A stretch of 40,689 nucleotides of DNA from a virus, in IMG/VR virus record IMGVR_UViG_3300032304_002117, positions 1 through 40,689 of that record; one strand, given 5' to 3'. How positions within the stretch are numbered: the stretch's first letter is position 1; every line of letters begins with the position of its first letter. The translations under genes were made by a program, and so were the position numbers. Under the pieces are notes generated by a model. That model was not told where the DNA came from. It was given only the letters and a program-made list of their open reading frames with translations, and did not search any database. Shown here piece by piece: positions 2,939-28,823 of this stretch.

Positions 2939-3610
2939 ATGAATACCTATGCAAGTGTGAGTGACATCAACAATCGCATGATATCAGTTTACAACAACAT
3001 GTTCTTGGCCGTGGTCACGAGCCTGATTGTTAGCCTGTTAGTGGCGTCAAGCCCCAGCTTGATGGCCCTGCTGTTTGGCACATGGATCAAGTGGGTGGTG
3101 ATTTTTGCACCACTTGTGATGATTTTTGCCATGACCTGGATCATGCAAAAAGCCACCTACGGTCAAGCCCGTGGCATGTTGCACATCTTTGCCGCACTCA
3201 TGGGACTCAGCCTCAGTGGCATATTTGTGGTCTACACCACTGCCAGCATTGTGAGTGCGTTCTTTGGTGCTGCAATCTTGTTTGGTACCATGAGTCTATG
3301 GGGATACTTTACTAAAAAGAGTTTAGAAGGTTGGGGTAGTTTCTTGTTGGTAGGACTCATTGCTGTGGTCGTCACCAGTATTGTGAACGTGTTTATTGGT
3401 AGTAGCACTCTAGCCATGGTTGTCAGTGCAGTGGCCATTATCGTGTTTTTAGGGCTCACTGCCTATGACACACAACGCATCCGTAATGAAGTCAGCATTC
3501 TTGAACCTGATTCAAAGGCCGAAATCCTGGGCGCACTGAGCTTGTACATGAACTTTATTAATATTTTTATCAGCTTGTTACAACTGTTTGGTGGCCGTAA
3601 TGATGACTAA
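2939..3610 (+). CDS. Bax inhibitor-1 / YccA family membrane protein
   Basis: A 223-residue polytopic membrane protein with about seven hydrophobic segments and the family's characteristic C-terminal part: GLTAYDTQRIR in the loop before the last helices and GALSLYMNFINIFISLLQL at the end. In bacteria BI-1 homologues such as YccA and YbhL sit in the inner membrane, and YccA is a substrate and modulator of the FtsH protease. A phage copy could therefore affect FtsH or membrane stress, but that role is inferred. The start follows AAGGAGAG by five bases. The length matches the family. Confidence 0.9.
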   Translation: MNTYASVSDINNRMISVYNNMFLAVVTSLIVSLLVASSPSLMALLFGTWIKWVVIFAPLVMIFAMTWIMQKATYGQARGMLHIFAALMGLSLSGIFVVYTTASIVSAFFGAAILFGTMSLWGYFTKKSLEGWGSFLLVGLIAVVVTSIVNVFIGSSTLAMVVSAVAIIVFLGLTAYDTQRIRNEVSILEPDSKAEILGALSLYMNFINIFISLLQLFGGRNDD

Positions 3611-13563: not shown

Positions 13564-13588
13564 AATGACCCTCCGGGGTCATTTTTTT
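13564..13588 (+). terminator. Rho-independent terminator
   Basis: AATGACCC pairs with GGGTCATT around a TCCG loop, followed by seven T residues. It is oriented for plus-strand transcripts arriving from 9549-13480, and its T-run overlaps the stop of the convergent speD gene. Confidence 0.8.
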
Positions 13589-13937
13589 AATCAGCGTGAC
13601 GAGTTAGGAAATTCACACGTATACCTGTGGGTTTGAAGTATTCGTTGACCACCTGTTTGGCAGTCGCTACATCAAACTCTTTGCAACTAAACACGTCTAT
13701 GTAGCAAGTACCGTCCAGTTCCATGAAATGTCCTGCGATGTTGCTGGTGGTGATTAGTTGCATCAAACTGTAGCCTTGTTTGGGATCCCCGGGCAACAGG
13801 TATTCAATGATGGGTTCGCCGTGTGCGGTCATGTCTATGCGTGCCACCAGATCTTTGACAAAACGGTAGATGTTGTCGCGGTTGTCTATGCCCGAGCAAC
13901 CCGAACAATCCAGCAGTAAGTGATATCCCCAATACAT
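13587..13937 (-). CDS. speD: S-adenosylmethionine decarboxylase-like protein (SpeD, class 1)
   Basis: A 116-residue SpeD-type proenzyme. The candidate pyruvoyl serine is Ser65 (TTSNIAGHF), with His70 and Cys85 (VFSC). The spacing equals that of Ser63, His68 and Cys83 in the Thermotoga maritima enzyme. The residue before the serine is Thr rather than the usual Glu, which may affect self-cleavage. The enzyme makes decarboxylated AdoMet for spermidine synthesis; no spermidine synthase is seen here. SpeD genes are known in cyanophages. No clear RBS precedes the start. Confidence 0.85.
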   Translation of the reverse strand: MYWGYHLLLDCSGCSGIDNRDNIYRFVKDLVARIDMTAHGEPIIEYLLPGDPKQGYSLMQLITTSNIAGHFMELDGTCYIDVFSCKEFDVATAKQVVNEYFKPTGIRVNFLTRHAD

Positions 13938-14400: not shown

Positions 14401-15687
14401 TTATTGTTTGTTTTGATTGAGAAGATAATATTTTTCTGCCATAGCATAAACTTCATCGGCATCATGCTGAGATCGTGATTTTAACCATTCTTTCTGAATT
14501 TCTTGATTGTCTCTATATTTTTGTCTTAGGTCCCGCCAAATTTTACTGGTATTAAGATTTTCCAAATTTTCAAATGCAGATTTCATATTTGTTTTAAGCT
14601 CATTGGTAACATGGTCTGAAAACTGCTTGGAAAAAAACAACCGTTTGTTGTACTGAGCAATATTGTATGCCTGTTGGAGATTAATTTGTCGTTGTTGTGG
14701 AGTCCAGTTTTTAATTGATGACATGAGATCTATCACTGCTTGTAAACGCTGTTGTGGATCTTGAATTTGATCATATTTTTCTGACCAGATGTTATCAAAA
14801 GTTTTGAATCCGTACTGTTTAAGATACTGTAATCCACCATGACTGCCAACCAAGATAAATGGCTGTGCCATGGCCATTGGTCTCAGTATTTTTTCTGTAA
14901 AGTGCAACCTTGGGTCGTCAAATAATGTTTCCAACACAACTTCTATATCAGTATTTTCATAATCTGTTTGATCAAAATCTGCGCTGTGATTCGAATTGAC
15001 CTGTCCAACCAAAAAATAATTTTCCAGTGTGATTTTGGGTTTCCACTCTTGATTTAAAAACTCATGTTGTTGATAGTGAACCGACAGCTCATGATCCACG
15101 GGTTTTATACTGGTTTGGCAATGTGAATGCAAGTTGGAATTCGCAAGCATTTCCAAAAACTTTAATCTATACTCTCTTGTGCCAGTCCATCCTTGAGCAT
15201 AAATTAAAAAAAGTTTTTGACTGTGTTTTTGTTGTTGCACATATTCGGCGTACCTGAACCAGTCTCTGGCTATCACCGCATGACTCCAATAATAGATTGG
15301 CAAAAAATCACAGTTTGAATATTTTTCTACTTCAACAGATCTTTGTTCGCTGTGCAACAACATGGCATGATCCCATATGGTTGCCGTTCTGATTCTAAAA
15401 TTTTTCCTTGGAGTATCACGTTTGTATTTTTGAGCCATAGGCGAGTATGATATTAGAGATTCAGAAATATGCTCATAAAAATCATAATTCAGTGGTTCCT
15501 GGTCGTTGCAATACATGTCTGGAATTGTTACCCGTTGTTTCCAGTTACAAAGAGGCTCATTGAGTGGTAACAAATGCTCAAACTTTTTTGAACCATGTGG
15601 CCAAAAACGATAAATTAATACGTCACCATACACTTCGTTGGCAATATTTTTCACGTAGTGATACAATCTATCTAATGGAATACTCAT
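14401..15687 (-). CDS. glycosyltransferase-like protein (exostosin/fucosyltransferase type)
   Basis: A 428-residue protein. The most informative part is about residues 255-320: FTEKILRPMAMAQPFILVGSHG, then YLKQYGFKTFDNIWSEKYD. That pattern (E-K-x-x-R-P-[IM]-A-x-x-x-PF-I-[LV], then G-F-x-T-F, then E-x-Y-D) is typical of phage proteins resembling exostosin-type or GT10-like glycosyltransferases. The start codon lies three bases from the start of the divergent sugar-dehydrogenase gene. It probably acts in sugar decoration of DNA, virion or cell surface; donor and acceptor are unknown. Confidence 0.6.
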   Translation of the reverse strand: MSIPLDRLYHYVKNIANEVYGDVLIYRFWPHGSKKFEHLLPLNEPLCNWKQRVTIPDMYCNDQEPLNYDFYEHISESLISYSPMAQKYKRDTPRKNFRIRTATIWDHAMLLHSEQRSVEVEKYSNCDFLPIYYWSHAVIARDWFRYAEYVQQQKHSQKLFLIYAQGWTGTREYRLKFLEMLANSNLHSHCQTSIKPVDHELSVHYQQHEFLNQEWKPKITLENYFLVGQVNSNHSADFDQTDYENTDIEVVLETLFDDPRLHFTEKILRPMAMAQPFILVGSHGGLQYLKQYGFKTFDNIWSEKYDQIQDPQQRLQAVIDLMSSIKNWTPQQRQINLQQAYNIAQYNKRLFFSKQFSDHVTNELKTNMKSAFENLENLNTSKIWRDLRQKYRDNQEIQKEWLKSRSQHDADEVYAMAEKYYLLNQNKQ

Positions 15688-15690
15688 TTT

Positions 15691-16929
15691 ATGTTAAAAA
15701 TTGGATTTGTTGGTCTGGGCAAATTAGGACTAGATGCAGCTGAAGTGTTTGCTGAGCACTATGAAGTACGCGGCTCGGATATTTACCCAAGAACCAGCGA
15801 CACTGTAAAAGTTTGTGACATCCAAGAGACCATACAGGCCAGCGATTGGATCTTTATTGCTGTACCTACTCCACACGCCGACGGCTATGACGGAAGTGTT
15901 CCCAGCAGCCACATGGAGCCACGAGACTTTGGACATGATGCGGTCATTGACGCCATTACTAAAATCAATCACTATGCTACCAGCAACAAACGTGTGGTAT
16001 TGATCAGCACAGTGTTGCCAGGGACCACCAGACATTATTTTGTTCCTAAATTGAATGATTGTCATCAATTTCTTTACAATCCTTATCTCATAGCCATGGG
16101 CAGTATAAAATGGGACATGGTCAATCCAGAAATGATCATGATTGGCACAGAAAATGGAGATTCTACAACCCTGGCACAAGAACTGGTTGAACTATATCAT
16201 CCCATGATGCAAAACAATCCCCGCTATGAAATTGGCACCTGGGACGAGTGTGAAGCTATCAAGATATTCTACAACACATTTATCAGTGCCAAGGTCGGTC
16301 TGGCCAACATGATACAAGACTTTGCCATGCGCATCGGCAACATCAATGTGGATGTTGTGACCACGGCTCTTGCACGCAGTACCGTGCGTATCATGGGACC
16401 CAAATACATGACAGCGGGCATGGGTGATGCTGGTGCTTGTCATCCCCGAGACAATATTGCCCTGCGGTGGTTGGCTGAGGAATACGACATTGGCTACGAC
16501 ATGTTTGACACCATCATGCGAGCCAGAGAAGTGCAGGCCAAAAATCTAGCAGACTTTTTGGTTCGGCAAGCACAAGGTCACAATCTGCCCATAGTCATAC
16601 ATGGCAAGGCCTACAAGCCCAATGTACCTTACTGCATTGGCAGTTACAGCACCTTGATTGGGCACTATGTCAACGTCAGCGGTCATCGGGTTTATTATGT
16701 GGATCCCCTGGCCGATGATACCACAGACGTGGTTGCTGATTTTGATCAACCTGCGGTAATCTTGATGGCTCACAATCGACAAATAACTTATGGTTACACC
16801 GGTGCTCAAGCTGCGGATCCAGATTACTTTGAATTCTGCGCTGGCAGCATTGTGGTTGACCCATGGCGCACCATACAATCAAGACCAGGCATACAAGTCA
16901 TACACTATGGCAACACACGAAATAATTAA
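15691..16929 (+). CDS. UDP-glucose / GDP-mannose dehydrogenase family protein
   Basis: A 412-residue enzyme with an N-terminal Rossmann motif (IGFVGLGKLGLDAAEVFA), a YNPYLI segment, the central EAIKIFYNTFISAKVGLANM helix and the catalytic cysteine Cys250 in GACHPRDN (GGSCFPKD in classical enzymes). The C-terminal domain has AYKPNVPY, close to the AFKPNT motif. Family members oxidise UDP- or GDP-sugars to uronic acids in two NAD-dependent steps. It is divergent enough that the substrate may differ. It opens a tightly packed run with the dioxygenase and amidinotransferase genes. Confidence 0.85.
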   Translation: MLKIGFVGLGKLGLDAAEVFAEHYEVRGSDIYPRTSDTVKVCDIQETIQASDWIFIAVPTPHADGYDGSVPSSHMEPRDFGHDAVIDAITKINHYATSNKRVVLISTVLPGTTRHYFVPKLNDCHQFLYNPYLIAMGSIKWDMVNPEMIMIGTENGDSTTLAQELVELYHPMMQNNPRYEIGTWDECEAIKIFYNTFISAKVGLANMIQDFAMRIGNINVDVVTTALARSTVRIMGPKYMTAGMGDAGACHPRDNIALRWLAEEYDIGYDMFDTIMRAREVQAKNLADFLVRQAQGHNLPIVIHGKAYKPNVPYCIGSYSTLIGHYVNVSGHRVYYVDPLADDTTDVVADFDQPAVILMAHNRQITYGYTGAQAADPDYFEFCAGSIVVDPWRTIQSRPGIQVIHYGNTRNN

Positions 16930-17425
16930 ATATTTTTTAGAAGTATTCTGGGATGATGAATATCAGCATCTCAATTATGTCAATGAACCTTTCAATGACA
17001 CAGCGTCTAGAGATCAGTGGATGGGACTGGGATATCCCAACAGATTCACCGGCGACATGTGTGACATGCGCAGTGCTCAACCCACGTGGAATCAACGATT
17101 CATTGATATCTTTGCTGACATGGGTTGGAAAGATATCGGTACCAGCTATTATCGCATGACCACAGGTACGGTATTGCCCACACACGGTGACCTATATGTA
17201 AAGTATATTGATTTACACAATCTACAAGGTCAAGAACACAGATTGCGTAGGGCCATTGTGTTCCTAGAAGATTGGAAAAGCGGGCATTATTTTGAAGGCA
17301 TGGCCGTGCCCATGATCAAGTGGACAGCAGGCACCGTGATAGAATGGCCCTACAATACTCCACACATGGCTGCCAACATTGGTCTAGAACCCAGATATAC
17401 TTTACAAATAACAGGATGGATTTAA
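16907..17425 (+). CDS. Fe(II)/2-oxoglutarate dioxygenase-like protein (172 aa)
   Basis: A double-stranded beta-helix protein with the facial triad visible: His93 and Asp95 (PTHGDLY) and His153 (NTPHMAANIG), followed by Arg163 (EPRYTLQITG), which would bind 2-oxoglutarate. The segment between, with RRAIVFLEDWKSGHYFEG and AGTVIEWP, fits the aspartyl/prolyl-hydroxylase-like fold. It overlaps the upstream gene by 23 bases and its stop overlaps the next start. Likely substrate: a product of the neighbouring sugar or amidino enzymes, or a protein; this cannot be told apart. Confidence 0.8.
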   Translation: MATHEIIKYFLEVFWDDEYQHLNYVNEPFNDTASRDQWMGLGYPNRFTGDMCDMRSAQPTWNQRFIDIFADMGWKDIGTSYYRMTTGTVLPTHGDLYVKYIDLHNLQGQEHRLRRAIVFLEDWKSGHYFEGMAVPMIKWTAGTVIEWPYNTPHMAANIGLEPRYTLQITGWI

Positions 17426-18342
17426 TGTACACCGTCAACGAATGGGATCCTTTAGAAGCCATTGTGGTAGGAAGTGCTACTCATGCCAACTGGCCCACAT
17501 CAGATCCTGTGTTTGCTGAAGAAGGACAAAAGACAACCTGGCGTGAAACTCCAGTACCGTCTGGGCCAGTGCCAGACTTCGTTGTTGATCAAGCCAACAG
17601 AGAACTAGACACACTCAGTGAAACCTTGTTGCGCCTGGGTGTCACTGTTTATCGACCTCAACCCATGGACTTTGTGGCCACAGGCGGCATGTACAATTAT
17701 TGCCCTAGAGATCGCTTGCTGATCTGGAAGGACACTGTGGTGGATGTCAACATGATGTATCCATGTCGCAATCAAGAAATCAAAAATTACACAAGATTGT
17801 TGGCCAAGGCCCGCAATATTTTGACCATGCCCAGAGATCAAGGCATGATCATGGATGCTGCCAATGTATGTAGACTGGACAAAGCCTGGTTGTTTCTGGA
17901 AAGTAATTCCGGTAACCGTGCTGCTTACGATTGGCTGTGCGAAAAATTTCCAGAAGTCACAATAGAACTGTGTAACTTTTACGCAGGTGTACACATTGAT
18001 TCAACAATAGTGCCCTTGCGCGAAGGCCTGGTCATGCTGAATGCCAGTCGAGTAACTGAAGAAAATTGTCCCAAGGCCTTTAAGGATTGGGAAAAAATTT
18101 GGGTAACCGAAGACCAAATTGTAGCACAGGACTTTTATCAATATCCCTATGCATCAAAATGGATAGCCATGAACATGCTGACCGTGGATCCGGAAACGGT
18201 TGTGGTTGATGCAGCCCAAACTGAATTGATTCGGATACTCAAAAGCAAAGGTATTGATTCGATTCCCTTGACGTTGAGTCACAGTCGAACTTTGGGTGGT
18301 GGATTCCATTGTGTGACTTTGGATACCAAACGACGTCATTGA
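17425..18342 (+). CDS. amidinotransferase (glycine/arginine amidinotransferase-like)
   Basis: A 305-residue member of the guanidino-group-modifying superfamily. It starts VNEWDPLEAIVVGSA, as amidinotransferases do. Catalytic residues in order: Asp144 (IMDAAN), His190 with Asp192 (GVHIDSTIVPLREGLVMLN) and the nucleophile Cys296 (GGGFHCVTLDTKR). Such enzymes transfer an amidino group from arginine to an amine or hydrolyse arginine. The start at 17425 overlaps the upstream TAA and has AGGA nine bases before it. With the sugar dehydrogenase and dioxygenase it may build a guanidino-modified compound. Confidence 0.87.
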   Translation: MYTVNEWDPLEAIVVGSATHANWPTSDPVFAEEGQKTTWRETPVPSGPVPDFVVDQANRELDTLSETLLRLGVTVYRPQPMDFVATGGMYNYCPRDRLLIWKDTVVDVNMMYPCRNQEIKNYTRLLAKARNILTMPRDQGMIMDAANVCRLDKAWLFLESNSGNRAAYDWLCEKFPEVTIELCNFYAGVHIDSTIVPLREGLVMLNASRVTEENCPKAFKDWEKIWVTEDQIVAQDFYQYPYASKWIAMNMLTVDPETVVVDAAQTELIRILKSKGIDSIPLTLSHSRTLGGGFHCVTLDTKRRH

Positions 18343-18367
18343 CAACAATCTCGTAGTTGTATATAAT
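18339..18367 (+). promoter_or_regulatory. perfect sigma70 consensus promoter of uvsE
   Basis: TTGACA (18339-18344), 17 bases, TATAAT (18362-18367). The predicted first base is the A of the start codon at 18374, so the mRNA is expected to be leaderless. Confidence 0.85.
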
Positions 18368-18373
18368 ACTTGT

Positions 18374-19405
18374 ATGACTACACTCAAACGCATCGGTTTC
18401 TGTTGCAAATGGCTCAATGACCCGTCAGAATGTGGCGGCATGAAAGTCAATGCCAAGGACCGCGATCTAAACGGACGTAGCACAACCATGCGTTGGTTGC
18501 GTGAGCATCCACTTGAAGCCGAACAACGCCAGTGGGACATCATGAACCACAATGCCTCGGCGGCTGTCAAGTTGATCGAGCGTGTGGCTTCATTGCCAGA
18601 GAACCGTAGAATGGTTAGATTAGGCAGTGAGATGTTGCAGGGCTACACTGAGAAAGATTGGAAAGCCTGGTGGCAAGATCCTGCCATACAGGCACACTGT
18701 GAACGGATATTTGCTCCCATTGGTGAAACAGCTCGCAGACTGGATGTGCGATTAAGTTTTCATCCAGGACAGTTCTGTGTGCTGGGTTCGGAGTCGGAAG
18801 AAATAGTAAATAGAAGCATAGAGGAGTTTGAATATCATGCTGACATGGCCAGATGGATGGGTTATGGGAAATCCTTCCAGGATTTCAAAATCAACGTACA
18901 CATATCAGGTAAAGCCGGTGCCGCAGGCGCACGCCGTGCCTGGTCGCGATTATCGCCCACAGCTCGCAGTTGTATTACATTTGAAAACGAAGAAATAACA
19001 CATGGCCTGGATCGTTGTCTTGAACTTGGTGATATTGTGCCTACTGTGCTTGATTGCCATCATCACTGGATCAAGACGGGAGAATATATTCAACCCACGG
19101 ACGATAGGGTCCAACGTGTCGTGGACAGTTGGCGTGGTGTTCGTCCTGCTATGCACTATAGCGTTAGCCGTGAAGATGTACTTGTTGACCATGCCATTCA
19201 CCATCGTCCAGATCATGCAAGTCTGTTAGAGTCAGGCCACAAGAAACAAAAACTGCGAGCACATTCGGACTTTTACTGGAATCAGGCAGTGACTGATTGG
19301 GCCTTGAGCTTTTGGGATCAATTTGACCTCCAATGCGAGTCAAAAGGTAAGAACTTGGCCAGCGAGCAGGTTTACAATCGTGCTGTAGAACTGGGGTTGG
19401 TGTAA
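18374..19405 (+). CDS. uvsE: UV damage endonuclease UvsE/UVDE
   Basis: A 343-residue TIM-barrel endonuclease. Metal-binding motifs of the family appear in order: first strand IGFCCKW, then RLSFHPGQFCVL, KINVHISGKAGA, ITFENEE, VLDCHHHW, MHYSVSRED and LRAHSDFYW. The enzyme nicks DNA 5' of UV photoproducts and other distortions without a glycosylase. It has its own consensus promoter and no Shine-Dalgarno. Moving the start downstream would delete the first barrel strand. Genes of this family are known in some phages. Confidence 0.93.
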   Translation: MTTLKRIGFCCKWLNDPSECGGMKVNAKDRDLNGRSTTMRWLREHPLEAEQRQWDIMNHNASAAVKLIERVASLPENRRMVRLGSEMLQGYTEKDWKAWWQDPAIQAHCERIFAPIGETARRLDVRLSFHPGQFCVLGSESEEIVNRSIEEFEYHADMARWMGYGKSFQDFKINVHISGKAGAAGARRAWSRLSPTARSCITFENEEITHGLDRCLELGDIVPTVLDCHHHWIKTGEYIQPTDDRVQRVVDSWRGVRPAMHYSVSREDVLVDHAIHHRPDHASLLESGHKKQKLRAHSDFYWNQAVTDWALSFWDQFDLQCESKGKNLASEQVYNRAVELGLV

Positions 19406-20747: not shown

Positions 20748-21449
20748 ATGACCGCAATTATCGCGACCTTGGTAATGGTCCAAATTACCATAGCCTGTGT
20801 TACCTTGTACCTACACCGAAGTCAAGCACACAGAGCTGTGCAGTTCCATCCAGTGGTAGTTCACTTCATGCGTTTTTGGCTTTTTCTAACCACTGGTATG
20901 GTGACCAAACAGTGGGTGGCTATACATCGTCGCCATCATCAGAAGAGTGATCGGGCCGGTGATCCGCACAGTCCTCAAATCTACGGTATCTGGCGTGTGC
21001 TGTTTGGCGGTGCCTTCCTGTATCATGAGGCCAGCAAAGACCGTGCCATGGTTGAGAAGTTAAGCACAGGCACACCCGACGACTGGATCGAACGCAACCT
21101 ATACGCTGCTCACAGCCGCTTGGGTATCATGCTCATGTTGCTTATTGACTTGGCGGTGTTTGGTCCTGTGGGATTCGTGGTCTGGGGAGTTCAGATGCTA
21201 TGGGTTCCGTTCTGGGCGGCCGGTGTCATAAACGGACTCAGCCATTGGTGGGGATATCGCAACACAGATACTCCAGATACTTCAAGGAATTTGATTCCTT
21301 GGGCTTTTTGGATCGGCGGGGAGGAGTTGCACAATTCGCACCATGCCGATGGAGCCAATCCTAAGTTTAGTCAAAAGTGGTGGGAGTTTGACATTGGCTG
21401 GATGTATATCTGTATATTGAGAGCCCTGGGTCTGGCGAAGCTACGATAG
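20748..21449 (+). CDS. fatty acid desaturase (acyl-CoA or acyl-lipid type)
   Basis: A 233-residue integral membrane di-iron desaturase. The three histidine boxes are HRSQAH (23-28), HRRHH (60-64) and HNSHH (195-199), separated by hydrophobic segments as in the delta-9 acyl-CoA/acyl-lipid family. It is shorter than most (about 260-300 residues) but complete in motifs. It introduces a double bond in fatty acyl chains using oxygen and an electron donor, so it would change host membrane fluidity during infection. Desaturase genes are known in cyanophages. TATAAT directly touches the ATG and no Shine-Dalgarno is visible. Confidence 0.9.
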   Translation: MTAIIATLVMVQITIACVTLYLHRSQAHRAVQFHPVVVHFMRFWLFLTTGMVTKQWVAIHRRHHQKSDRAGDPHSPQIYGIWRVLFGGAFLYHEASKDRAMVEKLSTGTPDDWIERNLYAAHSRLGIMLMLLIDLAVFGPVGFVVWGVQMLWVPFWAAGVINGLSHWWGYRNTDTPDTSRNLIPWAFWIGGEELHNSHHADGANPKFSQKWWEFDIGWMYICILRALGLAKLR

Positions 21450-26902: not shown

Positions 26903-27499
26903 ATGCCAAACTTGGTACCAATAGTGGTGGAGCAAACGTCAAAAGGCGAAAGAAGTTATGATATATACAGTAGACTTCTTCGTGACCGTATCATCATGCT
27001 GGACTCGGATGTAAACAATCACACAGCCAGCTTGATCGTGGCACAGATGCTGTTTTTAGAAGCAGAAGATCCTGATCGTGACATACTCTTTTACATCAAC
27101 AGCCCTGGCGGTAGTGTCACAGCAGGCATGAGCATATATGATACCATGCAGTACATAAAATCGGATGTGAGTACCATAGTCATGGGTCAGGCCTGTAGCA
27201 TGGGCAGTTTGTTGGCCACAGCCGGAGCTGCTGGCAAACGTTATATGTTGCCCCATGCCCGTAACATGATCCATCAACCGTCGGGTGGTGCAGAAGGACA
27301 GGCCACTGACATTGAAATACAAGCCAGAGAAATCTTAAAAATGAAACGCTATCTCACAGAAATCTATGTCACACACAACACCGCAGGCAAGACCTACGAC
27401 GATTTTGCACGCGACATGGAACGAGATTTTTTCATGAGTGCAGAAGAAGCCGTGGCCTATGGCCTAGCAGACCGGGTAATAACCAAGCGTGAAAGCTGA
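26903..27499 (+). CDS. clpP: ATP-dependent Clp protease proteolytic subunit ClpP
   Basis: A 198-residue serine peptidase with the full catalytic triad: Ser99 (GQACSMGS), His124 (MIHQPSGG) and Asp171 (RDMERDFF). The start at 26903 has AGGAG six bases upstream and gives [20 protein letters not shown], matching the mature N-terminus of bacterial ClpP. The E. coli-type propeptide is therefore absent and the protein may be active without processing. It forms two stacked heptamers that work with ClpX or ClpA. The radical SAM gene overlaps its 3' end. Confidence 0.96.
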
Positions 27500-28823
27500 T
27501 AAGAACATATTTTGTAATGCCCCTTGGTACGAACTGCAGATTTATTGGGATGGTAGTTTAGGATTCTGTTGTCAAGAAGATCATAAACTCTATGCTGATG
27601 AACTAAGCACGCATTACAATGTTAGTCGCATGACCATTGCTGAATGGTTTGATAGCAAACCCATGCGAGCCGCACGTATGGGCATGTTGGGATCCAAACC
27701 CAACAGCATTTGCCAACGTTGCTACCACGAACAAGAACATAATGGCACTAGCCGCAGGCACAAGTCTAATCAAAAAAGTGTTATCTTTACCAAGACAGCA
27801 TTTGACGAAAGTTACTTACAAAGTCCTGGCCACACAAAATTTGAATCAAGTCGGGCTAATCAAGGTGCTTACAGTGGCATGCCCATAGACCTGCATATTG
27901 ATCTTGGCAACTACTGTAACCTTGCTTGTAAAATGTGTAGACCGCAGGCCAGTAGTGTGATTGCTGCACAAGAAGTCAAGTGGGGCAACAAAGATGCTGT
28001 GCAATATGTGGGCACTGATTGGACACGTGACGAAACAGTATGGTCACGTGTGTTGGACGAATTGGCCAGTATTCCAAATCTTAACAACATTCATTTCATG
28101 GGCGGCGAAACATTAATTACCAAACGATTTGAAGACTTTGTTGACTACATGATTGCACGTGGACGAACTGATTTACATTTTAGTTTTGTCACCAACGGCA
28201 CTACATTCAATGAATCCTTGCTCAACAAGTTAACGCAGTTTAAAAGAGTTGGCATTGAGGTAAGCATAGAGACTGTAACCGAACATAATGCTTATCAACG
28301 TCAAGGCACTGATACTGAGCAGGTATTAAAGAATATTGATCAGTATCTTGAATATTGCAATGGAGATAATATAACATTGACTGCAAGGCCAGCAATCAGC
28401 GCCTTGACCATTGGCTATTACGATACCTTGTTGCGATATTGCATGGAACGTAAAATAATTGTCAAAAGTCTCTGGGTCAGCAAGCCCGACTTTTTGAATC
28501 CAAACATACTTCCAGATGCAATACGACAAGAATACATCTCAAAATATCAAAAGTTAATCAAGGATTACAAATTAGACGCAACAGATCATCTTGTTGATTA
28601 TAATGAAAGTGATCCAAATGAAATTGCTCGCATAATTGCCAGCCAGGCCGATCAATGCATTGCCATGTTGACCACTGCTGGGCCAGCAGACAGTGAAGCC
28701 CAATTAAAAAACATGGTCGCCCAATGCCGTCGTTGGGATAGCATCTACGGATACGATGCTGGCAAATTATATCCAGAATTTTCTACAATATTAAATCGTT
28801 ATGGCTATTCAACACCTGGTTAA
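27489..28823 (+). CDS. radical SAM protein with N-terminal SPASM/twitch-like segment
   Basis: GTG start inside the clpP 3' end. The radical SAM motif is CNLACKMC (Cys143, Cys147, Cys150), followed by HFMGGETLI and [10 protein letters not shown], the usual SAM-binding strands. Before it the segment [21 protein letters not shown] and later ICQRCYHE give Cys residues typical of an auxiliary cluster (SPASM/twitch). Such proteins occur in large phages with unknown substrates, often peptides or nucleotides. The partner gene at 28801 overlaps by 23 bases. Confidence 0.9.

Follow-up and report, generated by a model that had tools for sequence, protein, structure and literature searches.

A conserved 2OG oxygenase-amidinotransferase-glycosyltransferase cassette of giant phages: a candidate module for guanidinylation of a glycan-destined aminosugar

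A cassette of four enzyme-type genes, encoding a glycosyltransferase-like protein (GT), a sugar dehydrogenase homolog (UGD), a 2-oxoglutarate (2OG)-dependent oxygenase (OG), and an amidinotransferase (ADT), was analyzed in a 40.7-kb viral DNA fragment (IMG/VR record IMGVR_UViG_3300032304_002117, positions 1 to 40,689; here termed the window). It is proposed, with a probability of about 0.58, that this cassette represents a giant-phage sugar-tailoring module which guanidinylates an aminosugar for a glycan. This reading is favored because of the company kept by homologous genes, namely, the DegT aminotransferase and glycosyltransferase context in a second phage group and, in the giant phages, a minimal DegT with its epimerase, multiple GT copies, and further ADTs.

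Organization and conservation of the cassette

All four open reading frames (ORFs) that a preliminary description had placed together between positions 14401 and 18342 are present (Table 1), two of them with corrected starts. The longest ORF of OG spans positions 16790 to 17425, and its homologs support the start at 16907, while the start of ADT (longest ORF, 17320 to 18342) was moved to 17425, with 17416 (308 amino acids) as an alternative. The view of the last three genes as a single overlapping operon was borne out, as UGD and OG overlap by 23 nt and OG and ADT share one base within the stop-start TAATG. GT lies on the strand opposite UGD, from which it is separated by 3 nt, and is thus divergent and outside the UGD-OG-ADT operon.

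Table 1. Features of the cassette and its flanks in the window
Feature	Position	Strand	Description	Basis
AdoMet decarboxylase	13587-13937			
GT	14401..15687	-	Glycosyltransferase-like, predicted GT-B fold, 428 aa	Predicted fold and synteny
Tentative operon promoter	15638..15667	+	TTGGCA-N18-TACAAT, TG before -10	Consensus scan only, 10 of 12 positions
UGD	15691..16929	+	UDP-glucose/GDP-mannose dehydrogenase homolog, divergent phage subfamily, 412 aa	PF00984, PF03721, phrog_9148
OG	16907..17425	+	Small 2OG-Fe(II) oxygenase, 172 aa	HxD...H...R motif, AlphaFold2, Foldseek
ADT	17425..18342	+	StrB1-like amidinotransferase, 305 aa	phmmer versus PDB, catalytic triad
UVDE promoter	18339..18367	+	Perfect sigma-70 promoter, TTGACA-N17-TATAAT	0.04 expected in window
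UVDE	18374-19405		UV endonuclease gene downstream of ADT	

The tentative promoter of the UGD-OG-ADT operon falls inside the 5′ end of GT, and its conservation is no proof of promoter function, since these bases also code for conserved residues of GT. On its right, the cassette is bounded by the promoter of UVDE, a gene which was ruled out as an operon member because this sigma-70 promoter is its own and is conserved: a site of this type was located upstream of UVDE in 49 of 65 relatives, compared to 0 of 89 for ADT, 1 of 76 for OG, and 1 of 52 for UGD.

Among 80 viral loci anchored on ADT, many of which sit on contigs of 150 to 364 kb, OG was present in 79, GT in 74, and UGD in 54, in the same order, and an OG-anchored search retrieved ADT in 71 of 72 loci, directly adjacent in 64 of these. 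Some loci are near-duplicates, with 53 ADT-family proteins being left after those more than 90% identical were dropped. Linkage of the cassette genes is far above chance, and the constant core of the cassette is formed by the OG-ADT pair together with GT; roughly one relative in three lacks UGD next to the cassette. The set is, therefore, linked rather than scattered in other phages, and the combination is widespread among related viral loci rather than peculiar to a single phage. No near DNA relative of the window was found among deposited phages. The best match in genome contigs was a 4.4-kb contig of a Bacteroidetes metagenome-assembled genome (MAG), which has the same GT-OG-ADT order and is probably a mis-binned phage piece.

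Predicted functions of the encoded enzymes

Catalytic residues had been noted in three of the products; they are visible and conserved in UGD, OG, and ADT. In a phmmer search of PDB, ADT matched StrB1 at 217 bits, followed by HsvA (97 bits), AGAT (92 bits), and SxtG (83 bits), so that, as judged by sequence, StrB1 is by far its closest solved relative. The acceptor of StrB1 is scyllo-inosamine-4-phosphate. The idea that the product carries a guanidino modification holds up as a prediction, and the predicted Cys-His-Asp triad of the arginine:X amidinotransferase family, D147/H193/C299 (numbered from the start at 17416), is invariant in 15 aligned sequences. In the ADT tree, the giant-phage and cyanophage clades are separate, with no supported sister relation; only these phage clades were used, since several actinobacterial rows represent mis-framed or over-long ORFs. 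The neighborhoods of bacterial ADT relatives are mixed and offer no clear functional clue.

OG yielded no Pfam or PHROG match at a threshold of 0.01 and no PDB sequence match, whether as a single sequence or as a profile. A double-stranded beta-helix fold is supported by its AlphaFold2 model (pLDDT 92.8) and by Foldseek matches, the best of which was a Pseudomonas putida prolyl-4-hydroxylase (6.8e-6), with AsqJ, AspH, and PolD also being retrieved. The residues H93-x-D95...H153...R163, corresponding to the iron triad and the C-terminal arginine for 2-oxoglutarate, are invariant in 22 homologs, and the predicted catalytic residues are thus intact in OG as they are in ADT.

UGD harbors the Pfam domains PF00984 and PF03721 and matches phrog_9148 at 1.2e-86, with C250, K191, N195, and D254 being invariant. 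Y132 and M136 occupy positions at which canonical enzymes possess Glu, the window and its close phage relatives displaying NPYLIAMG versus NPEFLxEG; the Glu residues of the latter motif are active-site glutamates in UDP-glucose 6-dehydrogenase. The UDP-binding C-terminal domain PF03720 was not matched in the UGD of the window at 0.01, and a weak match (E value, 0.0025) was apparent in one relative. UGD belongs, on its residues, to a divergent subfamily with altered predicted active-site positions. This divergence and the absence of UGD beside the cassette in a third or so of the relatives leave the uronic acid product previously suggested insecure.

GT lacked a sequence match in Pfam, PHROG, or PDB, the last of which was searched with the single sequence and with a profile. 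Its AlphaFold2 model (pLDDT 89.4) retrieved mainly GT-B enzymes as best Foldseek matches, including SdgB and WaaG (E value, 2e-4; TM score, about 0.33 to 0.38; probability, about 1.0), and GT is accordingly predicted, on modest structural scores, to be a glycosyltransferase of the GT-B fold. The family carries a conserved block, TEK...GxLxYLxxYGFxTF, and is represented by up to 14 matches per giant-phage genome. Its sequence diverges faster than that of ADT, as would be expected if the acceptors vary.

Glycan-related context in relatives

In a second phage group, of the Synechococcus phage S-SCSM2R type, ADT is situated beside OG, a minimal DegT sugar aminotransferase, and several glycosyltransferases. 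DegT was present in 74 of 80 such loci, OG in 68, and a glycosyltransferase within 5 kb of ADT in 71; the commonest order is DegT, OG, ADT, with the same UGD directly following ADT in 10. A second ADT of S-SCSM2R itself adjoins a 2OG oxygenase and KdsA/KdsB.

The giant phages encode the same minimal DegT (36 to 44% identity, with the pyridoxal phosphate [PLP] lysine and an aspartate retained) with an adjoining epimerase, as well as further sugar clusters comprising an epimerase, DegT, a GT paralog, and a second ADT. An epimerase, an aminotransferase, and several glycosyltransferases occur together in single phage genomes among relatives. The DegT genes of giant phages are not adjacent to ADT, and the pathway would thus be pieced together from scattered loci; no DegT was detected among the scanned ORFs of the window or by tblastn with the cyanophage minimal DegT. 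Of the attachment sites initially put forward (DNA, virion, or host surface), a surface-type glycan is better supported than DNA, since cassettes homologous to this one are embedded in glycan clusters along with DegT aminotransferases and multiple glycosyltransferases.

Proposed pathway and its implications

ADT is proposed to act in a StrB1-like manner, in which case it would transfer the amidino group of arginine to the amine of an aminosugar-like acceptor, yielding ornithine along with a guanidino sugar. DegT-type aminotransferases, whose genes lie at other sites of these phage genomes, would provide the amine. OG may hydroxylate the sugar unit guanidinylated by ADT, or its partner, while UGD, where present, may make or oxidize the nucleotide-sugar precursor. 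GT would then transfer the product to a growing glycan, which, during infection, may decorate either the virion or the envelope of the host.

A broader proposal, to which we assign somewhat less than even odds, is that the giant phages and the marine cyanophage group share an unrecognized pathway (epimerase, minimal DegT, 2OG oxygenase, StrB1-like amidinotransferase, and glycosyltransferase) which places a hydroxylated guanidino sugar on virion or host-surface glycans. Such a modification is not known to us from any phage. Phage sugar clusters are known, but our literature search returned no description of guanidino-sugar chemistry in phages. If this is correct, the sugar which phages make would derive from arginine and carry a positive charge, and it would alter the way in which virions or infected cells encounter receptors, depolymerases, and phage competitors. 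A further consequence would be the relabeling of at least 597 viral amidinotransferase stretches in IMG/VR, to which an annotation of glycine amidinotransferase or creatine metabolism may be given. The OG-ADT pair is a compact enzyme system amenable to testing, and a cultured cyanophage, S-SCSM2R on Synechococcus WH7803, carries a homologous cluster.

Alternative functions

Two alternatives are each considered improbable, to a similar degree. ADT may be a metabolic gene for the synthesis of guanidinoacetate, of a creatine precursor, or of some other small guanidino metabolite, or simply for the release of ornithine for polyamines, its neighbors being incidental. Viral ADTs have appeared under the name glycine amidinotransferase (PMC8226683), a gene of the creatine pathway was described as virus enriched in the ocean (PMC11360552), and an AdoMet decarboxylase gene is located in the window; however, the latter occurs in just 5 of 80 loci, the score of StrB1 exceeds that of AGAT by more than 120 bits, and neither the steady OG and GT partners nor the DegT/glycosyltransferase context of the second phage group would be expected. 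Alternatively, the module may produce a small molecule in free form, either a guanidino sugar or a compound derived from amino acids, such as an antibiotic or toxin aiding the infected cell in competition. The solved ADT relatives StrB1, HsvA, and SxtG function in small-molecule biosynthesis, and, for a cyanophage cluster with a carbamoyltransferase, a halogenase, and 2OG oxygenases, Iyer and colleagues proposed secondary-metabolite synthesis among the options (PMC7824862); genes in giant-phage sugar clusters are similar to those of that cluster. Polymer decoration is nevertheless a better fit to the numerous glycosyltransferases and to KdsA/KdsB found in the same phage, and no export or resistance gene was recognized among the cassette genes.

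Modification of a virion protein by OG and ADT is judged less probable again. The best fold match of OG, a bacterial prolyl-4-hydroxylase, was solved with EF-Tu, AspH was also matched, and a candidate substrate, c5, is encoded in 50 of 80 loci, often straight after ADT. This reading conflicts with the small-molecule substrates of known ADT relatives, the absence of c5 from 30 of 80 loci and of a c5 homolog from the window, and the DegT and glycosyltransferase context, which it leaves unexplained. The fiber-like label of c5 reflects its coiled-coil appearance and C-terminal pattern only, and searches of Pfam, PHROGs, and phage records, together with a profile search of PDB, did not confirm a fiber identity.

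Least probable is modification of phage DNA bases, with GT as a DNA glucosyltransferase analog: T4 beta-glucosyltransferase is among its weaker fold matches (1nzd; E value, 3e-3) and a gene of the thymidylate synthase family, the usual source of modifiable bases, lies near DegT and a GT paralog in 3 of 17 large relatives, but such genes were not found in the other 14, several of which are fragments, WaaG and the protein glycosyltransferase SdgB are better GT matches, and OG-ADT resides within glycan clusters in the second phage group.

Comparison with known systems

Guanidinylation of a glycan-destined aminosugar, the favored reading, may be set against several described systems. In Campylobacter phages CP220 and CPt10, a gene that may encode glycine amidinotransferase belongs to a variable cluster of radical SAM genes (PMC2853527); its product is only 22 to 24% identical to the ADT of the window, and no match to OG was found in these phages. 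StrB1 (PDB 1bwd), the inosamine-phosphate amidinotransferase of streptomycin synthesis, aligns with ADT across two domains over most of the protein, with NEWDPL, DAANV, H-[IV]-D-S-T, and LGGGFHC-TLD as common motifs. The sequence kinship is distant, and ADT sits with OG and a glycosyltransferase; no streptidine or aminoglycoside cluster surrounds it, its neighbors being GT, UGD, OG, and UVDE in giant phages or DegT/glycosyltransferase clusters in the cyanophage type.

Large freshwater phages encoding bS21 harbor Clp protease, DegT aminotransferase, and polysaccharide biosynthesis genes, read as host-surface remodeling, and, unlike the present cassette, no amidinotransferase module is described in the passages covered (PMC9723584). 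Iyer et al. 2021 (PMC7824862) proposed that the clusters of jumbo phages and cyanophages, with NDP-sugar epimerases, glycosyltransferases, 2OG oxygenases, carbamoyltransferases, and halogenase-like enzymes, serve to change the capsule or the O antigen. In that account, the stem "amidino" is absent, and neither an OG-ADT core nor its link to a minimal DegT is described; the phage-borne enzyme types just listed are shared with the setting of the cassette. Such capsule- or O-antigen-like modification clusters (PMC7824862 and PMC9723584) provide precedent for the glycan reading, and the cassette is regarded as a variant of the known phage polysaccharide-modification clusters.

Gene content and enzyme identities

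The four enzyme genes that the preliminary description had grouped into a biosynthetic cassette are present in the 40,689-base IMG/VR record, and the last three, which encode a UDP-glucose/GDP-mannose dehydrogenase homologue (UGD), a 2OG-Fe(II) oxygenase (OG) and an amidinotransferase (ADT), do overlap in the same direction. The starts of OG (MATHEI...) and ADT were placed by homologues, the stop codon of OG and the start codon of ADT having one base in common (TAATG), and a second in-frame ATG for ADT is located at 17416. The glycosyltransferase gene (GT) is divergent from UGD, the two start codons being 3 nt apart.

ADT reached no model in the Pfam search and matched phrog_25854, of unknown function, in the PHROG search. 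Among solved structures, the inosamine-phosphate amidinotransferase StrB1 was by far its best match (217 bits), followed by HsvA (97 bits), AGAT (about 92 bits) and SxtG (83 bits), and Asp147, His193 and Cys299 were invariant in an alignment which included a cyanophage relative. The OG residues H93-x-D95, H153 and R163 were invariant across 22 homologues, and the fold matches of its AlphaFold2 model (pLDDT 92.8) were headed by 2OG oxygenases, the first being the Pseudomonas putida prolyl-4-hydroxylase (6.8e-6), with AsqJ, AspH and PolD among the others. GT yielded no sequence family; the top fold matches of its model (pLDDT 89.4) were mostly GT-B enzymes, with modest scores.

UGD harbors PF00984 and PF03721, matches phrog_9148, shares 53% identity with the UGD of cyanophage Bellamy and retains invariant Cys250, Lys191, Asn195 and Asp254. 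The glutamates of the NPEFLxEG motif matter in canonical UGD enzymes; both are replaced, by Tyr132 and Met136, in the phage subfamily of the window, and the substrate and reaction end-point should therefore not be copied from UGD. In two contigs, what looks like a split intein interrupts UGD exactly at the catalytic Cys (GDAGA|C... and ...VHN|CHPRDN); an endonuclease-like gene stands free between the halves, a "fractured gene" arrangement.

Positions of cassette genes and other features (locus coordinates are local)
Feature	Position	Remark
GT	window 14401-15687 (-)	GT-B-like
UGD	window 15691-16929 (+)	
OG	window 16907-17425 (+)	
ADT	window 17425-18342 (+)	
UVDE promoter	window 18339-18367	
UVDE	window 18374-19405	UV-damage endonuclease (UvdE)
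AdoMet decarboxylase	window 13587-13937	host-like gene
Fatty-acid desaturase	window 20748-21449	host-like gene
Radical SAM-SPASM protein	window 27489-28823	host-like gene
Bax1-I family protein	window 2939-3610	host-like gene
c5	L005:8917-10194, L047:9661-10926, and 48 others	
Minimal DegT, ~195 aa	L082:3293-3880; L301-L308 (e.g. L301:3815-4411)	half usual length; common to cyanophages and giant phages
Deeply diverged ADT paralogues, 340-410 aa	L144:15239-16300, L145:11867-12886, L074:11974-14247, L060:3350-4561	giant phages
Broken UGD	L027:1241-3782, L025:339-1813	
UGD with NadE-like gene	L083, L084, L309:5146-7149	
Thymidylate-synthase-family gene near DegT (region)	L146:5262-8926	

Linkage in giant-phage relatives

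A scan of IMG/VR with ADT returned at least 597 confirmed stretches, and in the best 80 of these (contigs up to 364 kb) OG accompanied ADT in 79, GT in 74, UVDE in 66 and UGD in 54, for the most part arranged as in the window; where UGD was missing, GT and OG were usually directly head to head. An independent scan, anchored on OG, covered 72 further loci and recovered ADT in 71, with the two genes directly adjacent in 64. These numbers are raised by near-duplicate contigs; at 90% identity, 53 ADT-family proteins are left. The cassette is thus linked in other phages rather than scattered, and is real, widespread and conserved. GT is 23 to 50% identical to that of the window, compared with 63 to 79% for the giant-phage ADTs, a much faster divergence than that of its neighbors, as would be anticipated if the enzyme were adapting to acceptors that vary.

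Immediately 3′ of ADT or the cassette-associated gene c21, 50 of the same best 80 (of at least 597) encode c5, a coiled-coil, fibre-like protein of 350 to 430 aa for which no family match, and no homologue in the window, was found.

Expression and cassette borders

UVDE is preceded in the window by a perfect sigma-70 promoter (TTGACA-N17-TATAAT), whose -10 element stops 6 nt short of the ATG; the UVDE mRNA may therefore be leaderless. Of 65 relatives, 49 have a similar site 5′ of UVDE, and such sites hardly ever occur 5′ of ADT, OG or UGD; the cassette thus ends with ADT. A T4-late-like TAAATA occurs about 12 nt 5′ of GT in 23 of 71 loci and 5′ of c21 in 14 of 18 (random 35-mers, 1.6%), and was found neither 5′ of UGD and OG in the loci nor 5′ of GT in the window. 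These sites hint that part of the module may be expressed late.

Related clusters in cyanophages and giant phages

Synechococcus phage S-SCSM2R encodes adjacent homologues of OG (27%) and ADT (33%) in a cluster that also contains glycosyltransferases, a short aminotransferase of the DegT family and a radical SAM protein; its second ADT adjoins a 2OG oxygenase near KdsA/KdsB. Of 80 such IMG/VR loci, 74 carry DegT, 68 carry OG and 71 have a glycosyltransferase of this cluster no more than 5 kb from ADT; DegT-OG-ADT was the commonest order, and UGD lay directly 3′ of ADT in 10. Since giant-phage and cyanophage ADTs form separate clades in a tree, their pairing with OG either dates from an old cassette or has repeated origins; in both cases, it points to OG and ADT as a functional pair. 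UGD also lies beside or near a NadE-like (NAD synthetase-like) gene in several cyanophages and pelagiphages, which could suggest uronic-acid amidation.

PF01041 was matched in 15 of 17 large giant-phage records, which include a minimal DegT (about 195 to 240 aa) that is 36 to 44% identical to the cyanophage protein in all eight fetched regions and keeps the Lys and Asp predicted to bind PLP. An NAD-dependent epimerase precedes it in the regions read, and an OG-like oxygenase follows it in two of the eight. Other clusters of these records combine an epimerase, full-length DegT, a GT paralogue and a second ADT, some adding radical SAM, carbamoyltransferase or tryptophan-halogenase-like genes, and the GT profile gave up to 14 matches per record. 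Some of the diverged ADT paralogues sit in epimerase/DegT/GT clusters. Three large relatives have a thymidylate-synthase-family gene about 3 kb or less from DegT and near a GT paralogue.

Proposed function and comparison with known systems

Beyond the observed enzyme classes, conserved residues and linkage, we infer substrates, step order and acceptor as follows. On the best reading, an aminosugar would gain a guanidino group, probably with accompanying hydroxylation, and would then be transferred onto a glycan, a plausible mechanism. The open-access literature yielded no description of a guanidino sugar or an OG-ADT pair in phages. An amidinotransferase amid radical SAM genes is known from CP220-type phages (PMC2853527), and one viral ADT has been catalogued as a glycine amidinotransferase (PMC8226683). 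Capsule- or O-antigen-like modification clusters occur in jumbo phages and cyanophages (PMC7824862), and large phages from freshwater that encode Clp protease and DegT have been interpreted as host-surface remodellers (PMC9723584); both reports support the general kind of function proposed here.
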